Of a stretch of DNA of 64,000 bases, positions 9,457-60,073 are shown in pieces. Position 1 is the first letter of the stretch; every line of letters starts with the position of its first letter. Made by a program: the position numbers and the translations under genes. Origin of the DNA: an uncultured Treponema sp. (GTDB lineage: Bacteria > Spirochaetota > Spirochaetia > Treponematales > Treponemataceae); NCBI GenBank assembly GCA_946410085.1, contig CAMJZA010000002.1:1-64000 (forward strand), given 5' to 3'. A model generated the notes under the pieces. It worked only from the letters and a program-made list of their open reading frames with translations. It was not told the DNA's origin and made no database searches.

Positions 9457-9485
9457 TTGTCTTTCTGCCCCATCTCTGCTAGAAT
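9457..9485 (+). promoter_or_regulatory. Sigma70-type promoter of hisS, close to the start codon
   Basis: TTGTCT (9457-9462) and TAGAAT (9480-9485) are separated by exactly 17 nt. The -10 ends 7 nt before the preferred hisS ATG at 9493, so the transcript would start at or next to that ATG. Confidence 0.65.
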
Positions 9486-9492
9486 GCAGGGC

Positions 9493-10788
9493 ATGGAAAC
9501 GATTATACAGCCGAAAGTTCTGAAAGGGTTCAGGGATTCCCTGCCCGCGGATGAGATTCTCCGCTCATCACTGATTGAAAAACTGACCAGCATATACCGG
9601 TCACGGGGCTTTGTGCCCATCGACACCCCGGTACTCGAATACACCGAAATCCTCCTGCGCAAGAGCAACGGCGAAACCGAAAAACAGGTCTTCCGCTTTG
9701 AAGACAACGGTGGCCGGGACGTTGCCATGCGCTTTGACCTGACCGTTCCCTTCGCCCGCTTTACGGCGGAACACCGGGACGAACTCTACTTCCCCTTCAA
9801 GCGCTACCACATCGCCAAGGTCTGGCGGGGCGAAAAACCCCAGGCGGGCCGCTACCGGGAGTTCGTGCAGTGCGACTTTGACTATGTGGGGAGCGACTCG
9901 TCCGCCTCAGATTTTGAAATTCTGGAGCTGATGAAAGCCGCCCTTGCCGGAATCGGCGTGGACAAGGTGACGATTCACGTGAACCACCGGGGCATCTTTA
10001 ACCGCTTCCTTGCAAAAATTGCCTGCAGCGAAAAGAGCGAGGATATCCTGCGCATCGTAGACAAGCTTGCCAAGGTGGGCAAGGACGAGGTAGAAAAAGA
10101 ACTTACCGAAGTTACCGGCAGCACGCAGTCGGCCGCCCTCATACTGGACTACATACAGCCCAAGGACAGCTGGGAGGCAACGCTTTCCCACCTGGAAGAA
10201 CTTGCCGGCGGCGAAGCGGAAGACACGAAGCGCATGAAGGAAATCCGTGCAATGATGGATGCAACGGGCATCAGCGCCGCCTACGTGCTTGACCCGTCCA
10301 TAACGAGGGGCCTTGACTACTACACGGGCGTAGTCTACGAGACCTTCCTGAACGAACTGCCTTCCATCGGCTCCGTCTGCTCAGGCGGCCGCTACGACAA
10401 CCTTGCGGGCCTGTACATGAAGGACAGGATTCCCGGCGTGGGGGCAAGCATCGGGCTTGACCGTCTCATTGCGGGCCTGAACCAGCTGGGACTGACCGAA
10501 AGCAGGGGCAGCTACATCGATGCAGAAATCTTCAATCAGGACGGAACGCGGACCGTCGCATACGTCAAGGCTGCTGCGGCCCTGCGCGAGCGGGGAGTCG
10601 CCGTAGAAGTCTTCCCCGATGCGGCAAAGATGAACAAACAGTACGCCGTTACCGACAAGAAGGGCATTAAGTGGGGCATCTTCGTCGCCGAAGACGGCAA
10701 CCTCACGCTCAAGAATCTGGCAACCCGCGAGCAGTTCGAGCGCCTCAGCGCGGACGATGCCGCAAAAAAGATAAAGGGGAACTTGTAA
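9493..10788 (+). CDS. hisS: Histidine-tRNA ligase
   Basis: HisRS charges tRNA-His. The 431-residue class II synthetase starts METIIQPKVLKGFRDSLP. It shows motif 2 (KVWRGEKPQAGRYREF), the histidine-binding GLDYYTGVVYE block and motif 3 (GVGASIGLDRLIAGL). The track's start at 9376 adds a non-homologous, low-complexity leader that spans the promoter and a GC-rich hairpin, so I place the start at ATG 9493. ATG 9484 is also in frame but lies inside the -10 box. No Shine-Dalgarno site at normal spacing is present, consistent with a leaderless message. Confidence 0.96.
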   Translation: METIIQPKVLKGFRDSLPADEILRSSLIEKLTSIYRSRGFVPIDTPVLEYTEILLRKSNGETEKQVFRFEDNGGRDVAMRFDLTVPFARFTAEHRDELYFPFKRYHIAKVWRGEKPQAGRYREFVQCDFDYVGSDSSASDFEILELMKAALAGIGVDKVTIHVNHRGIFNRFLAKIACSEKSEDILRIVDKLAKVGKDEVEKELTEVTGSTQSAALILDYIQPKDSWEATLSHLEELAGGEAEDTKRMKEIRAMMDATGISAAYVLDPSITRGLDYYTGVVYETFLNELPSIGSVCSGGRYDNLAGLYMKDRIPGVGASIGLDRLIAGLNQLGLTESRGSYIDAEIFNQDGTRTVAYVKAAAALRERGVAVEVFPDAAKMNKQYAVTDKKGIKWGIFVAEDGNLTLKNLATREQFERLSADDAAKKIKGNL

Positions 10789-39629: not shown

Positions 39630-40445
39630 CTACGCTTCTTTTTCGTACAGGCAGGCCCACTGGGTCTTCAGGAATTTGAACTTTGTTTCCATGCCGAACA
39701 GGCTTTCTGAGTGTCCGATGAACAGATAGGAATGCTTTGCCATCGCATTCCAGAAACGGTCAATCGTCGCCTTCTGGGCATCCTCGTCAAAATAAATGAG
39801 GACGTTCCGGCAGAACACGATGTCAAAGTCCTTGACGCCCGACTCGTGGGCAAGGTTATGGTAGTCAAAGCTGATGGTTGAAAGCAGCTCGGGCTTGACC
39901 TGAAAGCCCTCGGGTGTCTTCGTAAAGAAGCGGTCAAGGTAGTCCTGGGGAATCCCCGTGATGCGGTTTGTCTGGTAGAAGCCCTGGCGGCCGACCATAA
40001 GGGACTTGAGCGAGATGTCAGATGCCCGGATACTGAAGGTATAGGGAGCCGGCAGCTTGTCCTTGAGCAGCATCGCAATCGTATAGGGTTCCTCACCCGT
40101 CGAGCAGCCGGCGCTCCAGATGTTTATCTTCGTATGTCCCGTCTTTTTCTTGTCTTCTATCACGTGGGGAATGACATAATTGATTAAGGCGTCAAAATGA
40201 GGCTGGTTCCTGAAGAAACGCGTCAGATTCGTCGTTATGCTGTCCAGAAAGAGCTTGAGCTCCTCCTGATCGGACGTAACCATCTTAAAGTAGGTGTCCA
40301 CATCGTTCAGCTGCTTCTCCCGAAGCCGCTCCTTCAAACGACTGTCCAGAATAGAACGGTTCGTATCTGAAAACGTAATACCGCACGCCTTATAAATCAA
40401 ATCGCGGTACATAGTAAACTGTGAATCAGTAAGCAAGTCAGCCAT
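39630..40445 (-). CDS. cheR: Chemotaxis protein methyltransferase CheR
   Basis: CheR methylates chemoreceptor glutamates with SAM. The 271 residues show the N-terminal helical domain (MTSDQEELKLFLDSITTNLT), the SAM site IWSAGCSTGEEPYTIAM, the ASDIS motif and FDIVFCRNVLIYFD. I start at ATG 40445, since the longer track ORF reads back through the promoter. The -10 TATAAT ends six bases before this ATG, and no Shine-Dalgarno site is possible in such a leader. Confidence 0.96.
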   Translation of the reverse strand: MADLLTDSQFTMYRDLIYKACGITFSDTNRSILDSRLKERLREKQLNDVDTYFKMVTSDQEELKLFLDSITTNLTRFFRNQPHFDALINYVIPHVIEDKKKTGHTKINIWSAGCSTGEEPYTIAMLLKDKLPAPYTFSIRASDISLKSLMVGRQGFYQTNRITGIPQDYLDRFFTKTPEGFQVKPELLSTISFDYHNLAHESGVKDFDIVFCRNVLIYFDEDAQKATIDRFWNAMAKHSYLFIGHSESLFGMETKFKFLKTQWACLYEKEA

Positions 40446-40451
40446 AGAGCT

Positions 40452-40480
40452 ATTATATACCGCAATCGAAAAAAAGTAAA
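40452..40480 (-). promoter_or_regulatory. Sigma70-type promoter of cheR, leaderless layout
   Basis: On the minus strand TTTACT (40475-40480) and TATAAT (40452-40457) are 17 nt apart. Six bases (AGCTCT) separate the -10 from the ATG, placing the transcription start at the start codon. It is divergent from the lepB promoter. Confidence 0.7.
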
Positions 40481-40501
40481 CAAGCAATTCCAGAAACTCG
40501 C

Positions 40502-40530
40502 TTGAAAAGCACCTTTCCTTGTGCTAGTAT
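40502..40530 (+). promoter_or_regulatory. Sigma70-type promoter of the signal peptidase gene
   Basis: TTGAAA (40502-40507) and TAGTAT (40525-40530) are 17 nt apart. Eight bases separate the -10 from ATG 40539, so the leader would be about two bases. Confidence 0.7.
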
Positions 40531-40538
40531 AACGGCAC

Positions 40539-41246
40539 ATGATGAAAGAGAAACGACAAAACGTATACGAGTATTCTTTTGAGATGCAGCGCAGAAGGAA
40601 GCGGCGGATTACCACGACCCTGGCCACCATTTTCGGGACCTTCCTCTTCGTGACCCTCTTCCAGAGCTTCATCCTCTTTCCCATCCACATCAAGTCGGAC
40701 ACCATGGAAGACGGGCTTTCTGCAGGAGGCATCGCCTTTGTGTGTCCCCTGCTGAAGAAGCCCGAACGGGGCGACCTGTGCTATATAGCACGCATGGACG
40801 GACACCGGGAGTCATACCTCATGCGGCTTGCAGACTCCTTTGTCCGCTTCTTCACCTTCCAGCAGATCTCACCCTTCTCTGAAAGCAGCAAAAACAGCGG
40901 ACAGCCCTTTGTCAGGCGGGTCATCGCCCTGCCCGGCGACAGTGTATATATGAAGGATTTTGTCCTCTACATCAAACCGGATGCAGACAAGCACTATCTG
41001 TCCGAATTTGAGCTTTCGGGCAAGCCCTACAACGTGCAGATTTTTTCGATTCCTGCCGAATGGGACAATGTCGGCGTGTCAGGTGACCTGGAGGAGCAGA
41101 CGCTGGGAGAGGGAGAATACTTCGTCCTCGCCGACAACCGCGTGGAAAGCCTGGATTCCCGGCACTGGGGAGCCGTTAAAAGCGACCGCTTCCTCGGACG
41201 GGTCCTCCTCCAGTATTTTCCCGTCACCAGCATCAAGGCATACTGA
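40539..41246 (+). CDS. lepB: Signal peptidase I-family protein with altered active-site residues
   Basis: The 235-residue protein has one transmembrane helix (TTLATIFGTFLFVTLFQSFI) and then an S26-type domain. Conserved boxes are recognisable: IKSDTMEDGLSAGG (box B), FVRRVIALPGDSVYMKD (box D) and ESLDSRHWGAV (box E). Box B normally has the nucleophile Ser just before Met, but here it is Thr. Box D normally has the general-base Lys before Arg, but here it reads Arg-Arg. Processing of secreted proteins is the family role, but this copy may be inactive or mechanistically different. It is divergent from cheR and 15 nt before hemW. Confidence 0.82.
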   Translation: MMKEKRQNVYEYSFEMQRRRKRRITTTLATIFGTFLFVTLFQSFILFPIHIKSDTMEDGLSAGGIAFVCPLLKKPERGDLCYIARMDGHRESYLMRLADSFVRFFTFQQISPFSESSKNSGQPFVRRVIALPGDSVYMKDFVLYIKPDADKHYLSEFELSGKPYNVQIFSIPAEWDNVGVSGDLEEQTLGEGEYFVLADNRVESLDSRHWGAVKSDRFLGRVLLQYFPVTSIKAY

Positions 41247-50301: not shown

Positions 50302-50330
50302 TTGACGGATTGCATTTACTATATTACAAT
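50302..50330 (+). promoter_or_regulatory. Sigma70-type promoter of phoH
   Basis: TTGACG (50302-50307) and TACAAT (50325-50330) are 17 nt apart. Ten bases separate the -10 from ATG 50341, giving a leader of about four bases. Confidence 0.7.
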
Positions 50331-50340
50331 AAAAGCAATA

Positions 50341-51330
50341 ATGTCGGCATATACGATAGTGGTCCCGGATAACAACGTGCTCTGCCGCATTTGCGGGACC
50401 AATGACAGCAACCTGAAGCTCATCGAGAATTTTCTGGGAATTCCAATATTCGCCTGCGGAAATGAATTGTCCGTCGAAGACGGGGATATCGATGCCGTCC
50501 GCCGCTTCCGCTTTGTCATAGACTCCATCCTCGACGAGATTGCGCAGGGCTGCGGAGAGCTTTCCGACAGCGATCTGATCCAGTCGGTTCTGGCAGGAGC
50601 CATTGCCCCCTGTGCAGACAAGGGCAGGCTGAAGGCTGCTGACCATGCCTTTTTTGAGCAGAACAGCATCTGTGTGCCGGGAGCAACGCGGAGGGTCTAC
50701 CCAAGGACACGGGGACAGGCCCAGCTGGTCGCAATGATGCGCAAGAACAATGTCGTCATAGCGGAAGGTCCGGCAGGGTCCGGCAAGACCTTCCTCTGCA
50801 TCTGTGAAGCCCTGCGGCTCGTGCTGACCCATAAAATGAGCGGCATTGTCCTGACCCGGCCGGTCGTAGAGGCAGGAGAAAGCCTGGGCTTTCTGCCCGG
50901 AGACCTGAAGGAAAAACTCGATCCCTACATGCGCCCCCTCTACGATGCAATGCATGCCGTCCTTCCACGGGAAACCATCGCCAAGATGCAGGAAAATTCC
51001 ATCATAGAGACCGCCCCGCTCGCCTACATGCGGGGCAGGACGCTGAACGACAGCGTGATAATCCTTGATGAAGCACAGAATACGACGAGGGAACAGATGA
51101 AAATGTTCCTGACACGGATGGGAGAAGGCTCAAAGGTGTTCGTCACGGGTGACCTGACCCAAATAGACCTTCCCCGGCGCATACCGTCGGGCCTGGCAGA
51201 CGCAATTAACCTGCTCGGCAGCATTGACGGCATCGCAATACAGCACCTGGACGCAGAGGATGTCGTGAGAAATCCCCTCGTTAAACAGATAATAAAAGCG
51301 TACGAGAGTGAACGAAATGAAGCATTCTGA
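50341..51330 (+). CDS. phoH: PhoH-like ATPase
   Basis: PhoH/YbeZ proteins are RNA-linked ATPases often encoded with ybeY. The 329 residues have a short N-terminal KH-like region (NDSNLKLIENFLGIPIFACG), Walker A GPAGSGKTFLC, Walker B VIILDEAQNTTREQM and GDLTQIDLPR. I start at ATG 50341 rather than the TTG at 50302, which is the -35 box. It overlaps the PgpH-type gene by 14 bases. Confidence 0.95.
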   Translation: MSAYTIVVPDNNVLCRICGTNDSNLKLIENFLGIPIFACGNELSVEDGDIDAVRRFRFVIDSILDEIAQGCGELSDSDLIQSVLAGAIAPCADKGRLKAADHAFFEQNSICVPGATRRVYPRTRGQAQLVAMMRKNNVVIAEGPAGSGKTFLCICEALRLVLTHKMSGIVLTRPVVEAGESLGFLPGDLKEKLDPYMRPLYDAMHAVLPRETIAKMQENSIIETAPLAYMRGRTLNDSVIILDEAQNTTREQMKMFLTRMGEGSKVFVTGDLTQIDLPRRIPSGLADAINLLGSIDGIAIQHLDAEDVVRNPLVKQIIKAYESERNEAF

Positions 51331-56707: not shown

Positions 56708-56736
56708 TTGATTGCAGTACAAAAAACTGATATAAT
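56708..56736 (+). promoter_or_regulatory. Sigma70-type promoter of the second chemosensory operon
   Basis: TTGATT (56708-56713) and a perfect TATAAT (56731-56736) are 17 nt apart. The -10 is only six bases before the cheW ATG at 56743, so the mRNA would start on the start codon. Confidence 0.75.
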
Positions 56737-56742
56737 CAGAGA

Positions 56743-57201
56743 ATGAGCGAAAGTAACGAACAGCCGGATGATGACTGGCCTTACCTCATTTTCAGCGCCG
56801 GGGGCGAAAAATTCGCCGTTGCATCATCTTCCGTCAGGGAAATTGTACGGAACAACAGCATCTACCCCGTTCCCTTCGCACCTCCATACGTAAAGGGCAT
56901 CATAAACTGCTATTCAAGTCCTGTTGCTGCCGTGGACTGGATTTCCTTTCTGGGCAAGGAAGGCACGAATCCCCGCAAGGAAACCATTTTTCTCGTCCTG
57001 AAAGACTGTGAAGACATAGCCCTGCTTGTCTGGGGAATCGAAGAGTTCAAGTATACCAGAGAGATAACGAAGCAGCTCTTCCCGGAATCCGAGGAGCACG
57101 GCTGTTTCTCAGGAACAATCAGCTGGGACAACAATATGGTTCCCCTGCTTGATTTGAATGCGGCCGTCACAAAGATACGGGGGGACCTTGAAAACTGCTG
57201 A
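56743..57201 (+). CDS. cheW: CheW-like chemosensory coupling protein
   Basis: CheW links receptors to the CheA kinase. The 152-residue protein shows YLIFSAGGEKFAVASSSVRE, PFAPPYVKGIINCYSSPVAA and NMVPLLDLNAAV, the usual CheW beta-barrel pattern. It is the first gene of the cluster to 64 kb and is likely to be leaderless. The N-terminus is acidic (ESNEQPDDDW). No receptor gene is in the same unit. Confidence 0.92.
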   Translation: MSESNEQPDDDWPYLIFSAGGEKFAVASSSVREIVRNNSIYPVPFAPPYVKGIINCYSSPVAAVDWISFLGKEGTNPRKETIFLVLKDCEDIALLVWGIEEFKYTREITKQLFPESEEHGCFSGTISWDNNMVPLLDLNAAVTKIRGDLENC

Positions 57202-58669: not shown

Positions 58670-60073
58670 ATGCTGACGGAGTTTGATGCAGTTTTTAAGA
58701 CACTAGAAGCTCACTCTGGCATTACGGTTGCAAATGCTCACCGGGAATACATGGAAAAACTGATTCTGGAGCGGATCAGCGACATGGAAATTTCTTCCGC
58801 TGAATACACAGCCCTGATAAGCAGGGATGATGCGGAACTTTCATATCTGACGAATGCTGCAGCCGTCAATGAAACCTATTTTTTCCGTGAAGAGCGGCAG
58901 TTTGATTTTCTGAAGAATACCATCTTCATGCAGCGGAAGGCGAGGCCGTTGCATATCTGGAGCGCCTCCTGTTCCACGGGAGAAGAGCCGATTTCCATTT
59001 ATACCCTGGCAAAATTCTGCGGTCTGACCTGTTCCATCTCTGCATCGGACATCGATACCGATGCTCTTGCCAGCTTTAAAGCCGGGCAGTATACGGCAAA
59101 TTCCTTCAGGACTGACGGCAGTAAATACCGCGCCCTCATCGAACAGGTTGGAAGCTGGAAAGATGACAGGATGATCATCTCACCGGACGTCATCTCAAAC
59201 ATACATATATTCCCCTACAATCTTGCATCCGCAAGCCCTCCCCCCATCATGGAAGGCAGCATTGACATCATTTTCATGCGGAATGTCTTCATCTACTTCA
59301 CTGCGGAAGTCAGAAAGCGGATACTGAACAAACTCGCAAAGAGCCTCAAGGATGACGGCATCGTCATCCTCTCCATTAATGAGGTTGGGAACATCGACAA
59401 GAACGGTATCCCGTTCGATAAGCTCCATTCTGACACCATCTACTACCTGCAGAAACGGACGGGACCGGCAGAGCGGAAAGCGGTGTCTCCCGGAAGACTG
59501 GAACAGCTGAACATCGCAAAAACGGCAGAAACAATACCGGCAGTTCCCCGGCATCCGCTGCCACTGACTGCAAAAGATACACAACTCCCCAAAACAGCAG
59601 TAAAAGCCGGAGAGCTTCCCCGGCAGCCGCAGCCGCAGCCGGCAACCATTCATGCTCCCAGTCTGCAGGAGCTGTACGAGCATATAGACGGCTGCATCGG
59701 CAGGCATGACTGCGAAGCTGCAAAAAAAATGCTGAAAACGAAAGTTTTTAAGCCCCACGAAATGGAATTCAAATACTACTTTGAGGCCCTCATCAGCATT
59801 GAAGAGAACAGGGATGAACAGGCTGTTGAGGTACTTGAAAAGTCGGTCATGCTCAACAGCAGCTTCTGGCCCGCCCGCTACAGGCTTGCCCTGCTACGGC
59901 AAAAGCGCGGTGAAAAACAGGAAAGCCGGAAACAGTTCGAAAGCTGCTGCGCCAGCATTGAAAAGTACCGGAAGGATGCAAAGTCTGACTATGATTTCCT
60001 TCTTGGTGATTTCTGCCCGGAATATTTCGAAATGCTGTGCAGGAACTATGTAAAAAACGGAAAGGAAGGATAA
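58670..60073 (+). CDS. cheR: CheR methyltransferase with C-terminal TPR-like region
   Basis: The 467-residue protein has a CheR methyltransferase core with NETYFFREERQFDFLKN, IWSASCSTGEEPISIY, ASDIDTDALASFKAGQY and IIFMRNVFIYFTAEVRK. A Pro/Gln-rich linker (about 295-330) leads to a helical C-terminal region with TPR-like repeats (EYYFEALISIEENRDEQAVE type). CheR-TPR fusions occur in alternative systems such as Frz (FrzF). It starts 40 nt after cheB and ends six bases before cheA. Confidence 0.92.
   Translation: MLTEFDAVFKTLEAHSGITVANAHREYMEKLILERISDMEISSAEYTALISRDDAELSYLTNAAAVNETYFFREERQFDFLKNTIFMQRKARPLHIWSASCSTGEEPISIYTLAKFCGLTCSISASDIDTDALASFKAGQYTANSFRTDGSKYRALIEQVGSWKDDRMIISPDVISNIHIFPYNLASASPPPIMEGSIDIIFMRNVFIYFTAEVRKRILNKLAKSLKDDGIVILSINEVGNIDKNGIPFDKLHSDTIYYLQKRTGPAERKAVSPGRLEQLNIAKTAETIPAVPRHPLPLTAKDTQLPKTAVKAGELPRQPQPQPATIHAPSLQELYEHIDGCIGRHDCEAAKKMLKTKVFKPHEMEFKYYFEALISIEENRDEQAVEVLEKSVMLNSSFWPARYRLALLRQKRGEKQESRKQFESCCASIEKYRKDAKSDYDFLLGDFCPEYFEMLCRNYVKNGKEG

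Follow-up and report, generated by a model that had tools for sequence, protein, structure and literature searches.

Leaderless genes have been detected in 207 of 953 bacterial genomes, with the Spirochaetes among the groups concerned, and the proportion of TA-led genes reaches ∼20% in the Actinobacteria (Zheng et al., 2011, PMC3160421). Within the spirochaetes, dRNA-seq of Leptospira interrogans identified ∼440 mRNAs with leaders shorter than 10 nt, half of them shorter than 2 nt (PMC5243855). In Deinococcus-Thermus (PMC12340547) and in Mycobacterium tuberculosis (PMC3898074) a -10 element a few bp before the open reading frame drives a leaderless transcript, and the Deinococcus study found that an added -35 element raised expression, which implies that many native sites there have none (PMC12340547). 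In T. denticola one sigma70 start mapped by RACE lies 14 bp from the start codon, therefore short leaders are already recorded in the genus Treponema (PMC9481697). A search confined to the openly available literature turned up no account of leaderless mRNAs in Treponema. The leaderless strategy itself is known in bacteria; its documentation for Treponema appears to be new.

The window analysed here is a stretch of 64 000 nucleotides (contig C2, positions 1–64 000) from a genome of 3.64 Mb in 134 contigs, with a GC content of 54–55%. Relatives of its lepB with 71–73% identity come from rumen MAGs, including two from goat rumen, that are labelled Treponema sp. or uncultured Spirochaetaceae, and the host was therefore regarded as a rumen-type Treponema. 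The initial annotation had listed seven genes of the window in which a -10 box ends a few bases before the ATG, five of them with a -35 box at a 17-nt spacing. For these five, cheW, cheR, hisS, lepB and phoH, the layout was seen on direct reading (Table 1), and genome-wide scoring, blind to the earlier list, selected exactly these five genes in the window. The starts previously given for cheR (40445) and cheW (56743) were retained, whereas those of hisS, lepB and phoH had been placed 1–4 nt off and now stand at 9493, 40539 and 50341. The identities of the five genes were confirmed with Pfam.

Table 1. Promoter elements and coding sequences of the five genes with the leaderless layout in the window (SD, Shine-Dalgarno site)
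Feature	Position	Strand	Basis and remarks
cheR -35 element TTTACT	40475..40480	-	Direct reading; 17 bp from -10; scored
cheR -10 element TATAAT, 6 nt before ATG	40452..40457	-	Direct reading; scored
cheR coding sequence, start codon 40445-40443	39630..40445	-	TTTACT-17-TATAAT-6-ATG; chosen start without SD; Pfam CheR + CheR_N; orthologue alignments begin at residue 1
lepB -35 element TTGAAA	40502..40507	+	Direct reading; scored
lepB -10 element TAGTAT, TGC in front, 8 nt before ATG	40525..40530	+	Direct reading; scored; kept in relatives L122-L124
lepB-type signal peptidase coding sequence	40539..41246	+	TTGAAA-17-TAGTAT-8-ATG; chosen start without SD; Pfam Peptidase_S26
hisS -35 element TTGTCT	9457..9462	+	Direct reading; scored
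hisS -10 element TAGAAT, 7 nt before ATG	9480..9485	+	Direct reading; scored; all 30 orthologues have TANNNT 5-9 nt before ATG
hisS coding sequence	9493..10788	+	TTGTCT-17-TAGAAT-7-ATG; chosen start without SD; Pfam tRNA-synt_His
cheW -35 element TTGATT	56708..56713	+	Direct reading; scored
cheW -10 element TATAAT, 6 nt before ATG	56731..56736	+	Direct reading; scored
cheW coding sequence	56743..57201	+	TTGATT-17-TATAAT-6-ATG; chosen start without SD; Pfam CheW
phoH -35 element TTGACG	50302..50307	+	Direct reading; scored
phoH -10 element TACAAT, 10 nt before ATG	50325..50330	+	Direct reading; scored
phoH coding sequence	50341..51330	+	TTGACG-17-TACAAT-10-ATG; chosen start without SD; Pfam PhoH

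Distances from -10-like hexamers to the start codon, a count that the initial annotation had suggested, were compiled over the 1.58 Mb of the genome (43%) that was assembled from stretches, using a simple gene caller based on coding statistics only, which gave 679 operon-first and 487 internal genes. Upstream of the operon-first genes, -10-like hexamers were found at 6, 7, 8 and 9 nt from the start in 36, 20, 22 and 17 genes, respectively, against ∼4–5 per position elsewhere, so that 95 boxes were observed at 6–9 nt where ∼19 are expected. The peak was sought in the 487 internal genes and was absent. When these 95 sequences were aligned by their -10 boxes, an unselected -35 element (T88, T69 and G63 per cent) emerged at a spacing of 17 bp; a good -35 hexamer was located at 17 bp in 37 cases, at 16 bp in seven, at 18 bp in five and in between zero and two at each remaining spacing in the range of 8–29 bp. 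The logo and the spacing scan together match the sigma70 promoter form TTGaca-17-TAtaaT. Over the whole genome the strict pattern TTG-N20-TATAMT-N6..9-ATG gave 96 matches, none when reversed and 20 when the ATG was moved by 8 nt, to 14–17 nt. The -10 hexamer is short and a share of the boxes is expected by accident, but the positional peak, the exact 17-bp -35 element and the reversed-motif and moved-ATG controls make it scarcely credible that AT-rich upstream stretches simply mimic -10 boxes.

The absence of an SD site from such leaders, also claimed initially, was borne out across the genome as well as in the five window genes: an SD was present in seven of the 113 first genes that have a box at 4–11 nt, compared with 266 of the 566 that lack one. 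Starts were also assigned with a refined model, in which coding, SD and promoter signals are weighed together (718 operon-first and 448 internal genes). The layout was then found in 154 of the 718 operon-first genes (21%) and in 16 of the 448 internal genes, while the controls gave 42/717 (6%) at a decoy distance of 18–24 nt and 15/715 with reversed motifs. The excess over the decoy amounts to ∼15% of operon-first genes, or about one in six; given the decoy background of ∼6%, some of the listed genes are chance occurrences. With the refined starts an SD accompanied seven of 154 genes with the layout and 344 of 564 others (Fisher p = 3e-41), a contrast that is partly induced by the scoring. A pyrimidine directly preceded the ATG in 129 of the 154 (84%), rising to 46 of 51 (90%) where the spacing was 6 nt, compared with 235 of 344 SD genes (68%), an excess consistent with a transcription start at the A of the ATG. 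Use of ATG as the start codon differed little (148/154 genes with the layout and 323/344 SD genes).

RNA polymerase normally starts ∼7 nt after the -10 element; where the spacing is 6 nt, this position coincides with the A of the ATG. From this distance, the housekeeping (sigma70-type) promoters described here very probably start transcription on the A of the start codon or 0 to ∼4 nt ahead of it, producing a leaderless or near-leaderless mRNA of the first gene; at spacings of 7–10 nt a leader of 1–4 nt is indistinguishable from none. Initiation by 70S ribosomes at a 5'-terminal AUG has been described in other bacteria, and the mRNAs proposed here would be read by SD-independent initiation at the 5'-terminal AUG, probably in the same manner. 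As downstream operon genes are mostly SD-led, the genome would run two initiation modes in parallel. The support lies in the position of the box, the -35 spacing, the lack of an SD, the restriction to operon-first genes and conservation, and leaderless transcription of these genes is a supported prediction from sequence. Alternatively, the near promoter could be secondary, with the main mRNA originating further upstream and translated without an SD through an AU-rich leader. Weak, more distant promoter-like sites do occur at several genes, for example at 80 nt from cheR, but in the five window genes no other site within 160 nt comes close to the near promoter (scores of 12.8–15.6, any other scoring ≤7.4), and there is little likelihood that the principal transcripts arise elsewhere.

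The hisS orthologues of 30 genomes of the family share 62–74% protein identity. TANNNT, the form in which the hisS boxes were counted because the E. coli -10 weight threshold misses TAGTAT boxes, stands 5–9 nt before the ATG in 30 of 30, at 6 nt in 20 of them, and a TTG -35 is present in 27; at 20–24 nt TANNNT was found in 1/30, which also argues against chance. The layout extends to g13, to other g14 genomes and to G021; SD-like sites precede hisS in families f6 and f7, and in f4 neither the layout nor an SD was seen by eye. The hisS of a genome of 1.1 Mb (L238, G082) may carry TTGAAA-17-TACACT-7-GTG, a possible leaderless GTG start. The orthologues also bear on whether real promoters have been paired with wrong starts, translation beginning at a downstream SD-led codon behind a leader of normal length. 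Start calling is uncertain, and two of the seven genes listed initially had been misjudged; however, for most hisS orthologues, and for nearly all of those of cheR, the alignment begins at residue 1 or 2, and an unused ATG would show no enrichment at exactly 6–9 nt from a -10 box. An SD-led alternative start, which the initial annotation had named as a refutation, was sought within 50 codons downstream in the five genes and none was found. Mistaken starts are thus a very improbable explanation.

The promoters of cheR and lepB stand back to back inside the 93-bp gap (40446–40538) that divides these divergent genes. Upstream of lepB, TGCTATTAT-8-ATG is retained in three rumen relatives (L122–L124) despite diverged spacers; outside the closest rumen relatives the layout occurred in 7/23 compared with three at the decoy distance, and conservation there is not clear. 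Among cheR loci of the family, 15 of 30 (the cheR of the window included) have the leaderless layout and 12 of 30 an SD, one locus being scored as both. The paralogues found in the cheW search were too diverged to be of use in comparing orthologues. Downstream of the cheW at 56743, window positions 58700–59350 encode a second CheR-like domain with 30% identity to the cheR at 40445. Leaderless promoters often lie back to back where divergent genes are separated by a very short gap: besides cheR and lepB, secA (L072:7379-10228) and its neighbour (L072:10299-11543) are separated by 70 bp, and this divergent pair is also present in the genus relative G133.

Of the five window genes, phoH is the least certain, with a spacing of 10 nt, an alternative in-frame TTG 39 nt upstream preceded by GAGG at 7 nt, and an SD-led orthologue in G133. 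The two weaker examples of the initial annotation were rejected. The promoter of the nrnA-like gene scored only 2.9 at 10 nt, and an ATG in the same frame (window 15549), 60 nt before the assumed start and with GGAGG at 7 nt, is likely to be the true start. The top promoter of the sugar transferase is located 52 nt upstream.

Annotated genes with the layout include hisS, proS, dnaA, secA, ffh, lepB and those for NAD synthase, HPPK, a Ham1-family protein and the small subunit of exonuclease VII, together with cheA, cheW, cheR, flcA (flagellar collar), diguanylate cyclases and sensor kinases. The dnaA box (L013:2526-4139, minus strand) is TATAAT at 8 nt, and the divergent Ham1-family neighbour shares the layout. 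The proposal of a leaderless subset that includes chemotaxis genes agrees with the tests made here, with two genes removed; a chemotaxis-specific programme was dropped after annotation of ∼55 of the predicted leaderless proteins showed mixed functions, and the predicted set is a broad housekeeping and signalling collection.

In the genus relatives G133 and G001 the share of genes with the layout was 20% (decoy 6%) and 17% (decoy 4%), respectively, and orthologue concordance with G133, from few pairs, was 3/6 versus 2/22 (p = 0.05). Near and far counts of the strict pattern were 446:101 in nine genomes of the genus, 224:72 in three genomes of genus g13 in the host's family, 187:28 in G021, from another family (f5) of the host's order and the densest among 149 genomes of the phylum searched, and 88:22 in G166, elsewhere in the phylum. 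No excess was present in four small (1.0–1.5 Mb) f7 genomes (22:15) or in five f14 genomes (64:60). In G082, of the host's family, the strict pattern gave 1:0 and a looser pattern a mild excess of 43:25. By several independent lines of sequence evidence, the leaderless layout is widespread in Treponema and in part of its relatives.

The genes described here resemble the TA-led genes of Zheng et al. (2011, PMC3160421) in their TAtaaT-like signal ∼12 bp (first T) upstream and in their preference for operon-first positions; the main text of that study makes no mention of Treponema, whereas the present host is an uncultured rumen species, for which the patterns of the -35 element, the orthologues and the clade have also been described. 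L. interrogans is likewise a spirochaete with many leaderless mRNAs, mapped there and predicted here, but it belongs to another lineage and its motility genes are under-represented among them at 37 °C, whereas cheA, cheW, cheR and flcA are included here (PMC5243855). The sites described here typically carry a -35 element at 17 bp, in contrast to what is implied for many of the native Deinococcus sites (PMC12340547).

A further proposal, that Treponemataceae-type spirochaetes conserve both modes of initiation, with a fixed core of genes (hisS above all) that is obligatorily leaderless and others such as cheR that switch in evolution between leaderless and SD-led, is speculative and on present evidence rather unlikely. 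If it were true, conditions favouring leaderless initiation would shift defined housekeeping and chemotaxis proteins jointly. The findings bear on start-codon annotation, on expression tools for treponemes and on the understanding of antibiotics that spare leaderless initiation, and cheR, with the leaderless layout in some close relatives and an SD in others, would offer a natural system for asking what effect the mode of initiation has.
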